Assembly: GCA_021815245.1 (NCBI GenBank)
Contig: JAKAHF010000152.1
Location: 1-6,366 of the forward strand
Direction: 5' to 3'
Length of the DNA stretch: 6,366 nt
From: Actinomycetes bacterium
GTDB lineage: Bacteria; Actinomycetota; Thermoleophilia; RBG-16-64-13
The notes under the pieces were generated by a model, which was given only the letters and a program-made list of their open reading frames with translations, had not been told where the DNA came from and did not search any database. The translations under genes and the position numbers were made by a program. Positions 269 to 6,366 of the stretch are shown here, one piece after another. Numbering within the stretch: the first letter of the stretch is position 1; every line of letters begins with the position of its first letter.

Positions 269-895
269 CTACCAGGCCCGCTCTTCGCCGTTCACGTAGA
301 AGATCGTTGTGCCGGCGCCCGGGTCGACCATCGCGCCGAAGGTGGTTCCCGTCGAAGATACTGTGCCCACGGCGTAGGTTGTCTCCGTGCCCGAATAGTT
401 CACCGCGCCGGTGTACGCCAGGGCGGTCGGCGCCGTCGCGGCACTTCCGTCGGCCACGGGCACCCAGGTCACCGAGTCGTCGGCGGCGGCGACCACGGGC
501 GGTGAAATCACACCCGGATCGTACGTTCTCAGATCGACGTAGGCCACCTCGATCGCGATCATGGCCCTGCGCAAGAGCTGCCTGGCCTTTTCGTCGACGG
601 CCCAACCGCGCGCGGTTGCGAACTTGGAGCTTGATGCGCCCGAGGGATGCCCGGCCAGGTCGTGCTCTCCTGTGACCTCGGTTTCTGAGACCGCGACGTT
701 CATCTCTGAGACGGCCCCGTGCTGTTCTGAGGCGGCACCGTCCTGTTCTGAGACCCCGACGGCGCATCCAGAAACGGCGGTGGCGCCCGCCACCACGGCG
801 ATCAAGCCCAACGCCGCGATGGCTACAACCACCGCGCGCGCGAACGCCCGTGAGGGGTCGAGCCCTTCGACTCGACGCGCCAGCGTCCGCCCCAT
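269..895 (-). CDS. Predicted lipoprotein with pilin-like C-terminal domain
   Basis: This encodes 208 residues. The basic N-terminus (MGRTLARR) leads into a hydrophobic run (about 19-40) ending in VSGC, a lipobox with Cys44, so export and lipid anchoring are predicted. Four 7-residue repeats built on (V/A)SE follow (48-75), then a flexible stretch. From about residue 99 comes a predicted domain: an amphipathic helix (DEKARQLLRRAMIAIEVAYVD), a YDPG turn and beta-rich segments with VNYSGT, YAVGTVSSTGTTFG and FYVNGE. That layout resembles the C-terminal part of type IV pilin-like proteins of GC-rich Gram-positives, but no class III prepilin leader is present. The ATG at 895 was chosen because a GGGGGGAG lies 4 bases upstream; an in-frame ATG at 913 would add MIGGSF. 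Its link to the carboxylase cluster is unclear. The gene call is solid, lipidation likely, the pilin relationship moderate. Confidence 0.75.
   Translation of the reverse strand: MGRTLARRVEGLDPSRAFARAVVVAIAALGLIAVVAGATAVSGCAVGVSEQDGAASEQHGAVSEMNVAVSETEVTGEHDLAGHPSGASSSKFATARGWAVDEKARQLLRRAMIAIEVAYVDLRTYDPGVISPPVVAAADDSVTWVPVADGSAATAPTALAYTGAVNYSGTETTYAVGTVSSTGTTFGAMVDPGAGTTIFYVNGEERAW
684..767 (-). repeat. Four-copy 21-base tandem repeat inside the lipoprotein gene
   Basis: Units start at 684, 705, 726 and 747 on the plus strand, each opening with tctgag. The 21-base period keeps frame and gives a 7-residue repeat in the protein (units VSEQDGA, ASEQHGA, VSEMNVA, VSETEVT). The copies have diverged mainly in the middle of the unit. 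The stretch directly follows the predicted lipidated cysteine, so it probably forms a spacer between membrane anchor and outer domain. A weaker fifth copy may start at 768 (ccagaaac). Confidence 0.85.
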
Positions 896-899
896 GAAA

Positions 900-993: not shown

Positions 994-2214
994 TCAGGCG
1001 TTGCCCTGAAACGCCCGCGCCCGCTCGATGAGCGCGTCGGCGAACTCCGGATCGTTGATGTGGTACGGCAACACGACGACCGGCACGCCCTCGGGCATGA
1101 CCTTCTGCAGGTGCTCGGCAAAGACCGGCGGCAGCGACGGGTCGTGCAGATGGCCCTGTTCGCTGTCGTGCGACGAGAACCCGAGCAGCGGCACGTAGAA
1201 GGCCACCGGGCCCTTCGCCTCCTTGATGAGCCCCGCCATATGCTCGGCCACGCGCTTGTAGTCGTTGGCGTCGGCCCGCACCGCCGTCACCGAGGCGTTG
1301 TGGATGTGGTAGCGGCGGCCGGGAAAGCGCACCCGCGACCCCTCGACAGGACCGTCGACCAAGAAGTCGATATTGCCGGGCACGAAGATAGTGGGCACGC
1401 CCTTGTCGAGCGAGGCCTTGCACCGGTCGGGGCCCCCGTCGTAGAGACCTTGGGCCAGAAAGTCGCCCACTTCGATGAGGGAGAGGTCGATCACGAGCGA
1501 GACGTCCTGCTCGCGCACCGTCTCATCCATGGCCGGTCCCCCGGTGCCCTGCGAGTGGAAGACCATGACCTCCGAGCCGGCCTGCTCGAGCGCCGCGCGC
1601 ACCCGGTTGCAGCACGGGTCGGTGGTGCTGAGGGTGGTCATGGCCGCCACCGGTCTGCCCGACGACACCACGGGCGCGTAGGCTTTGGCCATGCCGGCGA
1701 GGGCCCGCACGCCGTTCTCAAAGACCCGCCGGGTCACCGTGTTGATGCCGGCCACGTCGCAGATCGAGTTGAGCATGACGATGTCTTTGGTGCCCACAAA
1801 AGGCTTGGTCATGCCTGAGGCCATGGTCGAGATGAGCACCTTGGGCAGTCCGAACGGAAACGTGCGCATGATCGCCGCGCCCAACGTGGTGCCACCCGAG
1901 CCGCCGGCCGCGATGATGCCGCTGAAACCGACCTGGTCGTCGAGTTCGCGGGCGCGCACGATGGCGCCCTGGATCATCAGGGCCATGCATTTGCCCTCGT
2001 GGTTGAGGGCCCTGATGTCGGGCATGGTCGTGCCCACGGCAGCGGCGATCTGGTCGGGAGTGATGTGCGCACCCGCCTCGACGGTCCGGCGGATGCTGGC
2101 GTCGAGTAGGTAGACCTCGAGCCCCTCTTGCTCGAGATGCTCCCTGATGAACCGGGTCTCGACCTCTTTGGAATCCAACGTCGCGATCAGCAGTACGTTC
2201 CGCTTCGAATGCAT
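994..2214 (-). CDS. Tm-1-like ATP-binding / UPF0261 family protein (second paralogue, complete)
   Basis: This encodes 406 residues, the usual full length for UPF0261, the bacterial relatives of plant Tm-1. The N-terminal domain (1-185) opens with a beta strand (NVLLIATLDSK) and carries the nucleotide-binding signature AAGGSGGTTLG (102-112) followed by PKVLISTMASG and the VGTKDI segment. The C-terminal domain (186-406) has FHSQGTGGPAMDE (219-231), GPDR (261-264), VPGNID (278-283), HDPS and the closing HINDPEFADAL. The usual PLRG is PLLG (342-345). The family reaction is not established, so none is assigned; ATP binding is expected. The ATG at 2214 is preceded by GGGGG five bases upstream. It lies 32 bases after the biotin carboxylase and ends the cluster, so co-transcription is likely. 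It is a distant paralogue of the gene at 5514-6366. Confidence 0.93.
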   Translation of the reverse strand: MHSKRNVLLIATLDSKEVETRFIREHLEQEGLEVYLLDASIRRTVEAGAHITPDQIAAAVGTTMPDIRALNHEGKCMALMIQGAIVRARELDDQVGFSGIIAAGGSGGTTLGAAIMRTFPFGLPKVLISTMASGMTKPFVGTKDIVMLNSICDVAGINTVTRRVFENGVRALAGMAKAYAPVVSSGRPVAAMTTLSTTDPCCNRVRAALEQAGSEVMVFHSQGTGGPAMDETVREQDVSLVIDLSLIEVGDFLAQGLYDGGPDRCKASLDKGVPTIFVPGNIDFLVDGPVEGSRVRFPGRRYHIHNASVTAVRADANDYKRVAEHMAGLIKEAKGPVAFYVPLLGFSSHDSEQGHLHDPSLPPVFAEHLQKVMPEGVPVVVLPYHINDPEFADALIERARAFQGNA

Positions 2215-2218
2215 GTGG

Positions 2219-2223
2219 CCCCC
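2219..2223 (-). promoter_or_regulatory. G-run Shine-Dalgarno of the complete UPF0261 gene
   Basis: GGGGG lies four bases upstream of the ATG at 2214 within a 32-base spacer. The flank GATCGGGGG also occurs before the lipoprotein start, and AAGGGGG precedes the carboxyltransferase start, so G-runs seem to serve as ribosome sites here, pairing with CCUCC through a wobble. Confidence 0.45.
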
Positions 2224-2246
2224 GATCGTCGTTGAGCGATACCCCG

Positions 2247-3707
2247 TCAGTTGCGAATCACCGCTGCCACTGCCGCTATCGCGGCTACCTTCCTTCTGTC
2301 GCGGCCAAGGCCGGTCAATGCATCGCCCAGACCAAGCTCCTCCTCGGCGATGCGCTTCGTCTCAGCCGCCAGGCTCGTCTCGCGCTCGATGAAGTGCGTG
2401 CCCAATTCGCCCCGTGCGAAGCGCTCGTTGCTCATCACCGCCAAATGGAAGGCGATGTTGGTCTTGACACCGACGATGGCGTACTCGCGCAGCGCTCGTT
2501 TCATGCGGGCGATGGCCTCGTCCCTGTCGCGTCCCCAGACGATCAGCTTCGCGATGAGGGAGTCGTAGAAGGGCGGAATCGAGTACGAGTCGTAGACCCC
2601 GCTGTCGACTCTCACACCAGGACCTCCGGGGGGCAGATAGCCGCGGATCTTGCCCGGACAGGGCACGAAATCGTCGGTGGCGTCCTCAGCGTTGACGCGG
2701 CACTCGATGGCGCTGCCGTTCAGCACGATGTCACTCTGAGAGAAACTCAGGGCGAGTCCCGCGGCCACGCGCATCTGCTCCTTGACGATGTCGACGCCGG
2801 TGACCATCTCGGTCACGGGATGCTCCACCTGCACGCGGGCGTTCACTTCCATGAAGTAGAACTGGCCGTTCGACCACAGGAACTCCACCGTGCCGGCGCC
2901 CTCGTAGCCCACCTGGCGGGCCGCGTTCACGGCGACCTCACCCATTCGGCGGCGCGTATCGGCGTCGAGCGCCGGTGAGGGAGACTCCTCGATGAGTTTC
3001 TGGTGCCTGCGCTGGATGGAACACTCGCGCTCGCCGAGATGCACGATGTTCCCATGGGAGTCGGCCAGTATCTGGAACTCGACGTGCCGTGGATCGGCCA
3101 GGTACCGCTCGAGGTAGACGTCGCCGATGCCGAACGCATTGCGGGCGACCGACTGCGCGGTCTCGAGCGCCTCAGGTAGTTCGCCCTCTCCGCTCGCGAT
3201 CGTCATGCCGATGCCGCCCCCGCCTCCCGAGGGTTTGATGGTCACCGGGTAGCCGATCTCGGCGGCGATGCTCTTCGCCCTCTCGGGGTCGGCCACACAC
3301 TCGCTACTGCCGGGCACGACCGGCACGCCCGCGGCGATCATCTCCCGGCGGGCGGCGGCCTTGTCGCCCACGAGCGCCAGCACGCGGCTCGAAGGCCCGA
3401 CGAAGGTGATGCCCCGGCTTTCGCAGGCAGCCGCGAAACCGGGGTGCTCGGCCAGAAACCCATATCCGGGATGGATGGCGTCGGCGCCGCACTGCTCGGC
3501 GGTCGCGATGATCTTCTCGATGTCGAGATAGCTGCGGGAGGCCGGCGGAGGACCGATGAGGAAGGCCTCGTCGGCCACCTTGACGAACAGGGCATCGCTG
3601 TCGGCCTCGGAATAGACGGCGACCGATGCCATACCCAGCTCGCGGCAGGCCCTCATGACCCTGACGGCTATCTCCCCGCGGTTGGCGACCAGGACCTTGC
3701 GGAGCAT
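2247..3707 (-). CDS. Biotin carboxylase subunit (AccC/PycA-like)
   Basis: This encodes 486 residues and catalyses ATP- and bicarbonate-dependent carboxylation of protein-bound biotin in the cytoplasm. The N-terminal domain starts KVLVANRGEIAVRV and includes HPGYGFLAE (79-87). The ATP-grasp domain has GDK with Lys116, Lys158, the glycine loop GGGGGIG (161-167), HVE at 208-210, and ERECSIQRRHQK ending at Lys237. The catalytic set is intact: Glu275, Glu287, Asn289, Arg291, QVE at 293-295 and Arg337, each one residue before the E. coli AccC number. The C-terminal domain has PPFYDSLIAKLIVWG. Oddities are Ile166 where Arg or Lys is usual in the glycine loop, and Pro159. The ATG is one base after the stop of the carboxyltransferase gene, implying translational coupling. 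Its partner is therefore the carrier domain of that protein. Acceptor specificity resides in the partner, so calling it acetyl-CoA carboxylase would be unsafe. Confidence 0.95.
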   Translation of the reverse strand: MLRKVLVANRGEIAVRVMRACRELGMASVAVYSEADSDALFVKVADEAFLIGPPPASRSYLDIEKIIATAEQCGADAIHPGYGFLAEHPGFAAACESRGITFVGPSSRVLALVGDKAAARREMIAAGVPVVPGSSECVADPERAKSIAAEIGYPVTIKPSGGGGGIGMTIASGEGELPEALETAQSVARNAFGIGDVYLERYLADPRHVEFQILADSHGNIVHLGERECSIQRRHQKLIEESPSPALDADTRRRMGEVAVNAARQVGYEGAGTVEFLWSNGQFYFMEVNARVQVEHPVTEMVTGVDIVKEQMRVAAGLALSFSQSDIVLNGSAIECRVNAEDATDDFVPCPGKIRGYLPPGGPGVRVDSGVYDSYSIPPFYDSLIAKLIVWGRDRDEAIARMKRALREYAIVGVKTNIAFHLAVMSNERFARGELGTHFIERETSLAAETKRIAEEELGLGDALTGLGRDRRKVAAIAAVAAVIRN

Positions 3708-3708
3708 G

Positions 3709-5514
3709 TCAGCCGACCACCACGAGCACGTCGTCGGCCTCGAGCATCTGGCCCTCCTCGGCCCAGACCTCGGTCACCACCCCCGCGTGCGAAGTGAGGA
3801 TGCTCCTGCGCATCTTCATGATCTCCATCATGGCCACCTCATCGCCCTCGGCGACCGAGTCGCCGGCGCCCACCTTGATGGAGAGCACGAGCCCGGCAGC
3901 CCCGGCCAAGATCGCGCCCTCGGGCGCCTCGCGCCGCGCCGCCGCCCCACCGGCAGGCTCGATGACGGTCGCCCCGTCGCCACTCCCGTCGGAGGGGAGG
4001 ATCTTGACGCTGAAGACCTCTCCATCGACCTCGACCATGAAGTGCCGTGGGCCGGAGCCCGCGACCCCGGCGGGAGCGCCTGCCGTCGACGCGGCCGGTG
4101 CGGCGCCGGATAGTGCGGCCGCCGGCGATGCGGCCCCCGAAGTCGCGCCGCCACTCGCTGCGCTGCCTCCGCCACTCGTCTGCCCCGCTGACTTCACCGG
4201 CCTCCCCGGAATGAGCACTTTGAGCAGCAGGTCGTCGTCGGAGAGATCGGGTCCCAACTCCTGCCGCAACTCCTCGACGGTCTTCAGGTAGCCCTCGGGC
4301 TGCCAGTCGAGCAGTTCCTTGGCCTTGGGCAGGCTCATGACCCGGTCGAGCAAATCGGGGTCGAGCGGATAGGCGGGGTCACCGTAGTAGCCCAGCAGGT
4401 ACTTGATCGACTCGTCGGTGACGTTCTTGTAGCGCTCCCCCGAGACCACGTTCTCGAAGGCCTGCACGCCCACGATCTGCGAGTAGGGCGTGGCCATCAC
4501 CGGGTAGCCGTACTCCCGGCGCACCCGCATGGCCTCCTCGAGGATCTCGTCGAGGCGATGCTCCATGCCGATCTCGCGGAGCTGCCGGGTGAAGTTGGTG
4601 ATCATGCCGCCCGGCACCTGGTGCTCGAAGTGAAACAGGTCGTACTCGAGCGGACGTCCGATGGGCAGGCCTTGCGTCTCGGCTATCCGCCGAAAGTGAG
4701 CTGAGACCTGGGCAAGGGCGTCTTCGTCGAGGTCCGACTCGAAGCCGAGGCGGCGCATATTCTTGACGATGGTCTCGGTTGCGGGCAGCGACGACGCGTT
4801 GGCGAGAGGAGCGACGGCGGTGTGCACCGTGGTCACGCCGGATTCGATGGCCGCGAGATAACAGAGCGGAGCGAGCCCCGAGTTGCAGTGCGAGTGGAAC
4901 TCGAGCGGGATACCCTCGCAGTTGCGTTGTACGATCGAGACCAACTCGCGGGTGCGCTCCGGGGTGATGATGCCCGACTCGTCGGAGATCATGATGCGGT
5001 CGATGCAGTCCTTGGCGTCGGCGATCATGCGGGTCTTGGCGATCCAATGCTCGTCGGTGTGCAGCGGGCTGCTCGTGTACATGAGCGAGGTCACGATCTC
5101 GGCGCCCTCCGCCTTGGCGATCTCGGCGAAGTAGCGAAACCGCTCCATGTTCTCCTGGTAGTCGCAGATCCAGAAGCTCCGTATGCCGTTGGCCACGTTG
5201 CGTTTGATCCACAGCGAGATGATGTCGCGAGGCGTGCTGAGGTCGAACGAGGAGAGGCTGGCGGTCTGGTACGACCCGCGCAACGGGGTCGACGGCATGA
5301 GCCCCGAGAGGAGCCGGATCCTCTCCCAGGGATCCTCGCCCAGAGTGCGCACGGCGACGGTGAAGGCCTGCGAGCCCACTGTCGCGACGGCCAGGTAGCC
5401 CACTTTGTTCATCGTCTCGGCGATGGACACGATGTGCTCGGTGCGCATCATGTTGCCCCAGAGACTCTGCTGGGCGTCACGGATAGTCTGGTCGACGAAC
5501 TGTATCTTGTCCAC
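3709..5514 (-). CDS. Biotin-dependent carboxyltransferase fused to biotin carrier domain, non-canonical active site
   Basis: This encodes 601 residues laid out like OadA/PycB: HMGL-like carboxyltransferase barrel (about 1-290), conserved carboxylase domain (300-435), Ala/Gly/Ser/Pro linker (441-487) and biotinyl domain (490-601). The barrel keeps DQTIRDAQQS (8-17), EDPWERIR (60-67), FHSHCNSGLAP (206-216), HQVPGGM and ATPYSQIVG. The metal ligands Asp8, His207 and His209 are present, but the KDMAG lysine is Ser177 in ISDESG (176-181). The usual WGGATFD is VGSQAFT (46-52), and FRIFDALND is FWICDYQEN (114-122). Biotin should attach to Lys567 (MEIMKM), 34 residues from the C-terminus as usual. The GTG start at 5514 shares its first base with the upstream TAG and has AAGGGGG ten bases before; later ATGs would remove the DxT motif. 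The biotin carboxylase follows after one base. The acceptor is unknown; pyruvate carboxylase or oxaloacetate decarboxylase labels would be over-specific. Confidence 0.92.
   Translation of the reverse strand: MDKIQFVDQTIRDAQQSLWGNMMRTEHIVSIAETMNKVGYLAVATVGSQAFTVAVRTLGEDPWERIRLLSGLMPSTPLRGSYQTASLSSFDLSTPRDIISLWIKRNVANGIRSFWICDYQENMERFRYFAEIAKAEGAEIVTSLMYTSSPLHTDEHWIAKTRMIADAKDCIDRIMISDESGIITPERTRELVSIVQRNCEGIPLEFHSHCNSGLAPLCYLAAIESGVTTVHTAVAPLANASSLPATETIVKNMRRLGFESDLDEDALAQVSAHFRRIAETQGLPIGRPLEYDLFHFEHQVPGGMITNFTRQLREIGMEHRLDEILEEAMRVRREYGYPVMATPYSQIVGVQAFENVVSGERYKNVTDESIKYLLGYYGDPAYPLDPDLLDRVMSLPKAKELLDWQPEGYLKTVEELRQELGPDLSDDDLLLKVLIPGRPVKSAGQTSGGGSAASGGATSGAASPAAALSGAAPAASTAGAPAGVAGSGPRHFMVEVDGEVFSVKILPSDGSGDGATVIEPAGGAAARREAPEGAILAGAAGLVLSIKVGAGDSVAEGDEVAMMEIMKMRRSILTSHAGVVTEVWAEEGQMLEADDVLVVVG
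4051..4194 (-). other. Coding low-complexity linker between carboxyltransferase and biotinyl domains
   Basis: Residues 441-487 are almost only Ala, Gly, Ser, Pro and Thr. Such mobile linkers let the carrier domain swing between the biotin carboxylase and carboxyltransferase sites. Its position supports one continuous fusion protein rather than two genes. Confidence 0.8.
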
Positions 5515-6366
5515 TAGCCTAGGACCCCCTTGGGAGACTGCTGAGAAATGAACGCGCGAGACAGGGCCTCCGCGACAGCCTTGGCGAAGACCGGGTCGTT
5601 GATGTCGGTGTCGATCTCGACGATCTCGATCTCCGCGTCGAGGTGCGCCTTGAGCGACGCCGCGAACGCCGCGTCGGCGGCGGGATCGTGCAGCGGACCG
5701 CCTTCGACGCTGAGCGACGACAGGCCCCTCAGCGGGATCACCGCCTTGACCCTGGCTTTGTTCTGATAGCGGTTCAACCGGTCGGCGACGGCGCGGGCGG
5801 TCTCGGTCATCTCCTCGGCGCTCGTACGCGCCTGCACCCGCGGCGGTGTCACGTGCAGCTTCCTCTCGGCGATGCGACGCGACGTCCACAGCGCATCGTT
5901 GGAGTCGCGCCGCTCCGGAGGGCCGCAACTGATCATGTCGAAGCCACCCGGACAAAAGATGTAGGGAATCGCGAGGCCGGCGGCCACGTCGAGGCGATCG
6001 GGGCCCGCGTCGCGGTTCCCCCCGAGCACGTGTTCGCTGAAAGACCCGGGCATGAGATCCACGAAGGCGGTGAAGAGACCCTGCGGAGTGAGATCCAAGG
6101 CCGCCCTGTCACCCATCCCCATGGCGTGGATGGAGACGATCTCAAACTCCCCCTCGAGAGCCTCCCTGATATGGTAGGCCCCTTTGTCGACGTAGCCGAA
6201 CTCGGTCACGGCCACCGAAAGCCTTTCGGTGCTGGCCACCGAAGGCTTTTCGGTGCCGGCCACCGACGGCTTCTGCCGGGCCGTCAGGGCCGTCCCGCTC
6301 TCGACCATGCCGGCGATGGCGCCGGCCCCGTTTGTGGCGAGCGTGCGCACCAGCGCGTCCATGCCC
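5514..6366 (-). CDS. Tm-1-like / UPF0261 family protein (first paralogue), N-terminal half outside window
   Basis: The C-terminal 283 residues are visible and the frame stays open to the window edge. The ATG at 6362 is probably internal: the Gly-Met there aligns without gaps to residues 156-175 of the complete paralogue (GMDALVRTLATNGAGAIAGM against GINTVTRRVFENGVRALAGM), so about 155 residues are missing. Numbered from that Met, family marks are GPDRLD (120-125), CPGGFDM (137-143), PLRGLSSL (210-217), HDPAAD and DINDPVFAKA near the end. The usual HATGTGG motif is altered to HAMGMGD (79-85), and three 8-residue repeats (31-54) enlarge the hinge between the domains. It is the first visible gene of the cluster, and its stop shares one base with the GTG of the carboxyltransferase. 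The family reaction is unknown. The family call is firm; any specific role is not. Confidence 0.88.
   Translation of the reverse strand, partial: GMDALVRTLATNGAGAIAGMVESGTALTARQKPSVAGTEKPSVASTERLSVAVTEFGYVDKGAYHIREALEGEFEIVSIHAMGMGDRAALDLTPQGLFTAFVDLMPGSFSEHVLGGNRDAGPDRLDVAAGLAIPYIFCPGGFDMISCGPPERRDSNDALWTSRRIAERKLHVTPPRVQARTSAEEMTETARAVADRLNRYQNKARVKAVIPLRGLSSLSVEGGPLHDPAADAAFAASLKAHLDAEIEIVEIDTDINDPVFAKAVAEALSRAFISQQSPKGVLG
5525..5531 (-). promoter_or_regulatory. Shine-Dalgarno AAGGGGG supporting the GTG start
   Basis: AAGGGGG lies within the last codons of the first UPF0261 gene and ten bases upstream of the GTG at 5514. It supports that GTG as the carboxyltransferase start, which is otherwise fixed by the conserved Asp8-x-Thr motif just inside the protein. 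Confidence 0.55.
6201..6272 (-). repeat. Three-copy 24-base tandem repeat in the UPF0261 hinge
   Basis: Units at 6249-6272, 6225-6248 and 6201-6224 encode KPSVAGTE, KPSVASTE and RLSVAVTE. The last unit aligns with the native strand that opens the C-terminal domain (GRPVAAMTT in the complete paralogue), so the extra copies look like duplications of that segment. The period keeps frame. Two copies carry an inverted repeat: CACCGAAAGCCTTTCGGTG at 6213-6231 (8-bp arms) and 7-bp arms at 6237-6255. Confidence 0.85.

Follow-up and report, generated by a model that had tools for sequence, protein, structure and literature searches.

We analyzed a 6,366-nucleotide stretch of DNA from an Actinomycetes bacterium of the Thermoleophilia (assembly GCA_021815245.1, contig JAKAHF010000152.1; the whole stretch is hereafter called the window), in which a biotin-dependent carboxylase is encoded between two genes of the UPF0261 family. 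We propose, with a probability of roughly 70%, that these four genes specify the first reactions in the breakdown of a hydroxyaryl ketone, with 4-hydroxyacetophenone and acetovanillone as examples. In the proposed scheme, the full-length UPF0261 protein (UPF-A) would phosphorylate the phenolic hydroxyl at the expense of ATP, the biotin carboxylase (BC) would charge the biotin of a carboxyltransferase fused to its biotin carrier (CT-BCCP) using bicarbonate and ATP, and the carboxyltransferase (CT) would place the carboxyl group on the acetyl carbon of the phospho-ketone to give an aryl beta-keto acid. Enzymes whose genes lie close by in relatives, or elsewhere, would then attach this acid to CoA and cleave it, and the second UPF0261 protein (UPF-B) would be accessory to the phospho-aryl carboxylation, perhaps removing or transferring phosphate. 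Phosphorylation-coupled biotin carboxylation of hydroxyphenylethanones is already known from a few bacteria, and a single-component kinase is in print; new in the window are the fused CT-BCCP, the second and divergent UPF0261 protein, and the occurrence in uncultured bacteria that stand far apart from the strains described so far.

A four-gene operon and its recurrence

The four genes lie on one strand, as follows:

5514..6366, minus strand: UPF-B, second UPF0261 protein; C-terminal two thirds, 283 codons, running off the window end
3709..5514, minus strand: CT-BCCP, carboxyltransferase fused to biotin carrier; PF00682 (HMGL-like), PF02436 (PYC_OADA), PF00364
2247..3707, minus strand: BC, biotin carboxylase; PF00289, PF02786, PF02785
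994..2214, minus strand: UPF-A, full-length UPF0261 protein; PF06792 and PF23189 (2.4e-54, 1.6e-61)

CT-BCCP starts with GTG and has one base in common with the UPF-B stop codon. Aligned homologues place this start at 5514; the start at 5955 in the list of open reading frames (ORFs) is mechanical. BC begins one base past CT-BCCP, and UPF-A 32 bases past BC. This order and spacing agree with a preliminary description of the window, with the correction that the upstream UPF0261 gene is incomplete: it is cut by the window edge, and the N-terminal part of UPF-B was judged from relatives. The named CT homologues nearest to the window CT come from Thermoleophilia bins (78-80% identity). Promoter, terminator and Rfam scans of the window gave nothing useful.

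A CT alignment was scanned against GTDB genome contigs, which yielded 29 loci. The set tabulated here comprises 38 CT loci, namely 28 of those 29 together with 10 fetched from individual genomes; group names such as Actinobacteria, Acidobacteria, Deltaproteobacteria and Chloroflexota are those in the record titles. The exact order UPF-B, CT, BC, UPF-A was found in four of the 38 loci, one from an actinobacterial metagenome-assembled genome (MAG; L001) and three from acidobacterial MAGs (L002, L003, L005), and at L012 UPF-B is followed by CT at the contig end. The arrangement is thus not confined to one genome. The earlier suggestion that the tight packing reflects one process is supported. At least one UPF0261 gene was present in 25 of the 38 loci. 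In G001, G002, G003, G005 and G013, which are MAGs and perhaps incomplete, the pair at this locus accounts for the only two UPF0261 matches of the genome. Before counting, we left out L007 (same contig as L057) and UPF0261 fragments of at most 330 residues, including two L019 pieces. CT pieces of at most 400 residues were also left out, so that L025 lies outside the residue table; L021 lies outside the CT tree, and L089 and L093, which carry no annotation, were left out of the kinase-type classification.

The carboxylase and its acceptor

BC matched the NCBIfam model PRK08654.1 (763 bits against a cut-off of 739), and the biotin motif E-x-MKM is invariant in 21 aligned CT-BCCP homologues. The ATP-driven carboxylase proposed in the preliminary description is supported. 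The window CT falls in a 46-row clade (support 100/100) apart from pyruvate carboxylase, oxaloacetate decarboxylase and transcarboxylase 5S; inside this clade are the CTs of plasmid operons resembling that of the Hpe pathway (see the last section), which represent the Hpe side of the tree in place of HpeB itself.

The window CT retains the Asp and the two His of the metal site. At the Lys column, which we take to hold the carbamylated ligand of pyruvate carboxylase, the window's CT clade has E; the window and L001 have S, with an E two residues later. At the Arg column (MLLRG), presumably that of pyruvate binding, the window has Q, and Q, M, T or V occur across its 29-row clade. The pyruvate-enzyme positions Lys (IKD) and Arg (LLRG) are S and Q in the window, as against K and R in 5ks8, 2nx9 and 1rqb. 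Given the clade placement and these changes, pyruvate is probably not the acceptor. In the UPF0261-linked plasmid CTs, the Lys is retained and the Arg replaced by T, and two Rhodococcus CTs accompanied by a kinase pair have E at the Lys column and keep the Arg. On these residues, the acceptor of the window CT may differ from that of the plasmid enzymes, and the Arg column appears to be no clean marker. Because the AlphaFold model of CT is too poor for active-site geometry (mean predicted local distance difference test score 63.7), these comparisons rest on sequence alignments.

UPF-A, a candidate phenolic-ketone kinase

UPF0261 proteins currently carry the labels 'hypothetical protein' (NCBIfam) and uncharacterised (Pfam). 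The family is widespread and forms part of the plant Tm-1 virus-resistance protein, according to an excerpt of PMC5028733. UPF-A has both UPF0261 domains. Among solved structures, 9mpy ranks first for it both in sequence match (about 51% identity) and in Foldseek E-value; this is the structure of Saro_1862 from Novosphingobium aromaticivorans with acetovanillone bound. In a UPF0261 tree of 73 rows, UPF-A belongs to an 11-row clade (support 100/99) made up of the window, four plasmid rows, L001, L002, L003, L005, L013 and Saro_1862. UPF-A and Saro_1862 also share the motifs GGSxG(T/S), STMASG and HDS. A 2026 paper, available to us as an excerpt (PMC13101465), describes MarK, a single-component Novosphingobium kinase that starts a pathway much like the Hpe route of phosphorylation and biotin-dependent carboxylation; we infer that MarK is Saro_1862. 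Furthermore, among otherwise matching plasmid operons, a UPF-A homologue occupies the position that a two-part phosphoenolpyruvate (PEP)-synthase-like kinase holds in another. Given the clade placement, the description of MarK and this operon swap, UPF-A is most likely the phenolic-ketone kinase. The swap and the clade offer, for part of the UPF0261 family, a function that can be tested.

The statement in the preliminary description that no described pathway joining these families was known is not supported, since the solved structure of a Novosphingobium UPF0261 protein contains acetovanillone and, as far as the excerpt goes, MarK starts an Hpe-like pathway. In the open-access literature searched, we found no paper for 9MPY, Saro_1862 or 'Tm-1-like ATP-binding'; 'Tm-1-like' with biotin returned only a cotton genome paper, 'Tm-1-like' with carboxylase in bacteria returned nothing, and the excerpts of acetovanillone papers held nothing on Saro_1862.

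The UPF-A clade is represented in five of the 38 CT loci, all five of which have UPF-B and none a PEP-synthase-like subunit. The PEP-synthase-like pair is represented by one or both subunits in 13 of the 38 loci (both in six), with UPF-B in seven of the 13 and UPF-A in none.

UPF-B, a divergent second UPF0261 protein

UPF-B matches UPF0261_C (PF23189, 6.2e-51) and is 72% identical to the L001 UPF-B over 251 columns. It lies in a separate clade of 27 rows (support 100/99), which includes one UPF0261 protein from each of eight UbiD clusters of the phenol-degradation type (L061, L065-L070, L080), all from the phylum of genome G006 (Deltaproteobacteria by title). A second UPF0261 gene is present in all eight of these clusters, and the PEP-synthase-like kinase pair and UbiX in seven each. 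They come from 20 UPF0261-only loci that were hand-picked, favouring contigs of the G006 phylum with more than one UPF0261 gene, and therefore 8 UbiD loci among the 11 taken from this phylum should not be read as a frequency.

We compared conserved columns between the two clades, omitting L086 (a copy), L055, L062 and the partial window UPF-B. Of the 147 columns that are at least 90% identical among 10 UPF-A rows, 33 are kept by the 24 UPF-B rows (in at least 80%) and the other 114 are not; UPF-B shows changes in the glycine loop GGSxGT and in the STMASG stretch. With few clade-conserved residues kept and a separate clade, UPF-B does not class as a MarK-type kinase. Judged from the alignment, UPF-A and UPF-B are not equivalent, one being kinase-like and the other lacking many of those residues. 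Of the roles suggested earlier for the UPF0261 proteins (activating, supplying or consuming the substrate or product), activation of the substrate is most likely that of UPF-A.

UPF-B is found with either kinase type, and five further UPF-B loci show neither (L012 and L055 are short contigs). Among three kinds of phosphatase query, the HAD type matched in five plasmid loci, the tyrosine type in two plasmid loci and ARMT1 in three genome CT loci. Overall, a phosphatase match was seen in none of 17 UPF-B CT loci against 10 of 16 other kinase-candidate loci (nine genome, seven plasmid; Fisher 9e-5, from hand counts), a split that is a lead and not a test because the loci share ancestry (L085 and L086 being almost duplicates) and not all stretches are long. 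At 1e-6, three HAD queries matched nothing in the window or the 17 UPF-B CT loci, a search that distant or farther-off HADs would escape. At L049, a UPF-B locus, a PP2C gene lies upstream of CT.

The lack of matches to these phosphatase queries at the UPF-B loci, together with the presence of UPF-B in UbiD clusters, suggests that UPF-B acts on the aryl phosphate rather than making it. A more specific version, which we put forward tentatively and consider doubtful, is that UPF-B is a subfamily that has moved past kinase chemistry and acts on the phosphorylated aromatic, from which it would probably remove or pass on the phosphate, either while carboxylation proceeds or afterwards. Such a protein would serve both the biotin CT and UbiD, two unrelated carboxylases, with either kind of kinase, and would replace the HAD, tyrosine-type or ARMT1-type phosphatase that other lineages have.

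The window UPF-B also contains a threefold eight-residue repeat (KPSVAGTE, KPSVASTE, RLSVAVTE; window 6201-6272, minus strand), of which the unit is present once in the aligned relatives from L001, L002, L003 and L005.

Neighbouring genes, the likely product and alternative substrates

The neighbours of the CT loci repeatedly fit a beta-keto acid product. One group of AMP-forming CoA ligases recurs in 13 of the 38 loci (best matches 58-87%), an HMG-CoA-synthase-like cluster in 12 and a thiolase cluster in 10; the latter two were found in none of the eight UbiD loci, and the CoA ligases in five of those eight are at most 36% identical to the CT-linked ones. Both subunits (A and B) of 3-oxoacid CoA-transferase score over cut-off at L003 and are partly present at L012, and BKACE occurs in L004 and L022.

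These neighbours suit any beta-keto acid, and so they would also fit a biotin carboxylase of a small unphosphorylated ketone (e.g., an aliphatic methyl ketone), with UPF0261 proteins binding, delivering or ATP-enolising it and no phospho-aryl intermediate. The difference between the active site of the window CT and those of the UPF0261-linked plasmid CTs points in the same direction, as do the two related clusters (L019, L021) of the ketone degrader Desulfosarcina cetonica. However, the closest solved UPF0261 protein has an aromatic ketone bound. The operon swap with an aromatic kinase pair and the HAD hydrolase beside the plasmid UPF0261 gene argue for a phosphorylated intermediate. In addition, D. 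cetonica proteomics assign acetone and pentanones to a thiamine diphosphate/B12 (TDP/B12) route. We therefore consider this explanation unlikely. Acetone, a candidate substrate arising from L019 and L021, was dropped because D. cetonica degrades it by the TDP/B12 route (excerpts of PMC7888143 and PMC8084838). A D. cetonica spot named 'pyruvate carboxylase subunit B' (63.7 kDa, pI 5.73) does not match the L019 CT (65.7 kDa, pI 4.95), and the second D. cetonica CT gene (L021:984-2713) is interrupted and read as two ORFs.

The composition of the eight UbiD clusters whose UPF0261 proteins share the UPF-B clade raises a further alternative, namely ring carboxylation of a phenol-type compound in the manner of phenylphosphate carboxylase, in which UPF-A would make the aryl phosphate and the biotin enzyme would stand in UbiD's place. 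We regard this as quite improbable, since the genes downstream suit a beta-keto acid and not a hydroxybenzoate, as the thiolase and HMG-CoA-synthase-like counts indicate, and HpeCBA, the characterised biotin carboxylase, carboxylates the acetyl group (PMC9618137). A 4-hydroxybenzoyl-CoA reductase suggested beside L013 by BLAST clustering was ruled out on NCBIfam scores, the alpha subunit reaching 213 bits where the cut-off is 995; the homologue at L066, a UbiD cluster, reached 905 bits against the same cut-off and is only 'like' that enzyme.

Finally, the domain architecture, the database names and a score of 407 bits (cut-off 402) with the NCBIfam domain model 'pyruvate carboxylase subunit B' would suggest an ordinary pyruvate carboxylase or oxaloacetate decarboxylase of two subunits, to which the neighbouring UPF0261 genes are unrelated. 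This reading is very improbable in view of the well-supported separate CT clade, the changed Arg and Lys columns, oadA and pyruvate carboxylase equivalog scores far under cut-off, and UPF0261 linkage that recurs in MAGs of several phyla.

Linkage of CT and UPF0261 across genomes

CT matches at E <= 1e-110 were found in at least one of 296 genomes of the G001 phylum (Actinobacteria by title), at least two of 149 of its class and at least 14 of 297 of the G006 phylum; at E <= 1e-100, they were found in at least three of 247 genomes of the G002 phylum (Acidobacteria by title). These counts are lower bounds because 4 to 8 first-look candidates at most were scored per genome. UPF0261 was present in 25 of the 247 G002-phylum genomes (24 over cut-off) and 66 of the 297 G006-phylum genomes, and at the same thresholds, with the CT counts again lower bounds, 22 of those 25 and 54 of those 66 had no CT match. 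The UPF0261 family overall is often apart from this carboxylase, and the UPF-A and UPF-B subfamilies are seen with carboxylation clusters. Thus, the regular separation that the preliminary description had named as evidence against its reading applies to the family as a whole; it does not apply to the window's two subfamilies in the loci seen.

Conversely, UPF0261 was present in all three CT genomes of the G002 phylum and in all seven genomes of the G006 phylum whose CT is at least 60% identical (hypergeometric 9e-4 and 2e-5), a test that is not independent because seven of these 10 genomes were already known from the contig scan. In six of the seven G006-phylum genomes, UPF0261 lies within a few kb of CT, G006 itself being the exception. 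For the other seven CTs of this phylum (42-48% identity), the match is confined to the CT part of the query. Six of them directly adjoin BC, and the 2.8-4.3 kb fetched at these loci contain no UPF0261; for five of the six (L050-L054), the 14-20 kb fetched contain none either. One (G469) adjoins UPF0261 without BC alongside.

Several side observations were made at these loci. P0018 (611 residues) has UPF0261_C and CT domains with no biotin carrier domain listed, and is either a real fusion or a frame artefact. Next to CT or UPF0261 clusters, a pair of proteins (about 250 and 230 residues) is found repeatedly (L016:3447-4933, L027:5350-6778, L062:2647-4083), the L016 pair having no Pfam match. 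Caballeronia, Arthrobacter and Sulfitobacter plasmids (L091, L094, L095) carry related CT, BCCP and BC genes with neither kinase type in view; in two of the three, a gene for biotin synthesis or transport is close by. In the window, a 209-residue ORF downstream of UPF-A (269-898, minus strand) has no Pfam or NCBIfam match, and its start resembles a lipoprotein signal by eye.

Comparison with known systems

The closest described system is the Hpe/Acv pathway of Rhodococcus rhodochrous GD02 and Sphingobium SYK-6, which comprises the HpeHI kinase, the HpeCBA biotin carboxylase and the HpeD phosphatase. As in that pathway, ATP-dependent phosphorylation is proposed ahead of biotin-dependent carboxylation to a beta-keto acid, and the same parts (CT, BC and biotin carrier) occur together in the window operon, with the CT in the clade of the Hpe-like plasmid enzymes (35-44% identity to the plasmid CTs, HpeB itself being outside the comparison). 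Unlike in the Hpe/Acv pathway, the proposed kinase is a UPF0261 protein and not a PEP-synthase-like pair, the carrier is fused to CT, and the HAD queries (HpeD type) matched nothing around the window genes or around those of its UPF-B relatives. Kinase-coupled ketone carboxylation, described so far from a few strains, would through this cluster reach MAGs titled Acidobacteria, Deltaproteobacteria, Chloroflexota and Actinobacteria. Bisphenol-type breakdown passes through 4-hydroxyacetophenone, and the plasmid copies in Sphingomonas bisphenolicum and related strains tie the cluster to breakdown of such pollutants.

UPF-A resembles MarK/Saro_1862 in clade, identity and motifs, insofar as the two names denote one protein. 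However, the window cluster adds UPF-B, which did not appear at any of the four plasmid loci that carry a UPF-A homologue, and the window DNA is closest to Thermoleophilia bins. Other Tm-1-like UPF0261 proteins have a PEP-hydrolase-like TIM-barrel partner; the PEP_hydrolase cluster was found in six of the 20 UPF0261-only loci, as against none of the 38 CT loci. The UbiD clusters differ in that their carboxylase is UbiD, and some carry hydroxybenzoyl-CoA-reductase-like genes. Nevertheless, they have UPF-B in common with the biotin-dependent clusters, which points to an unrecognised step common to both kinds of carboxylation.
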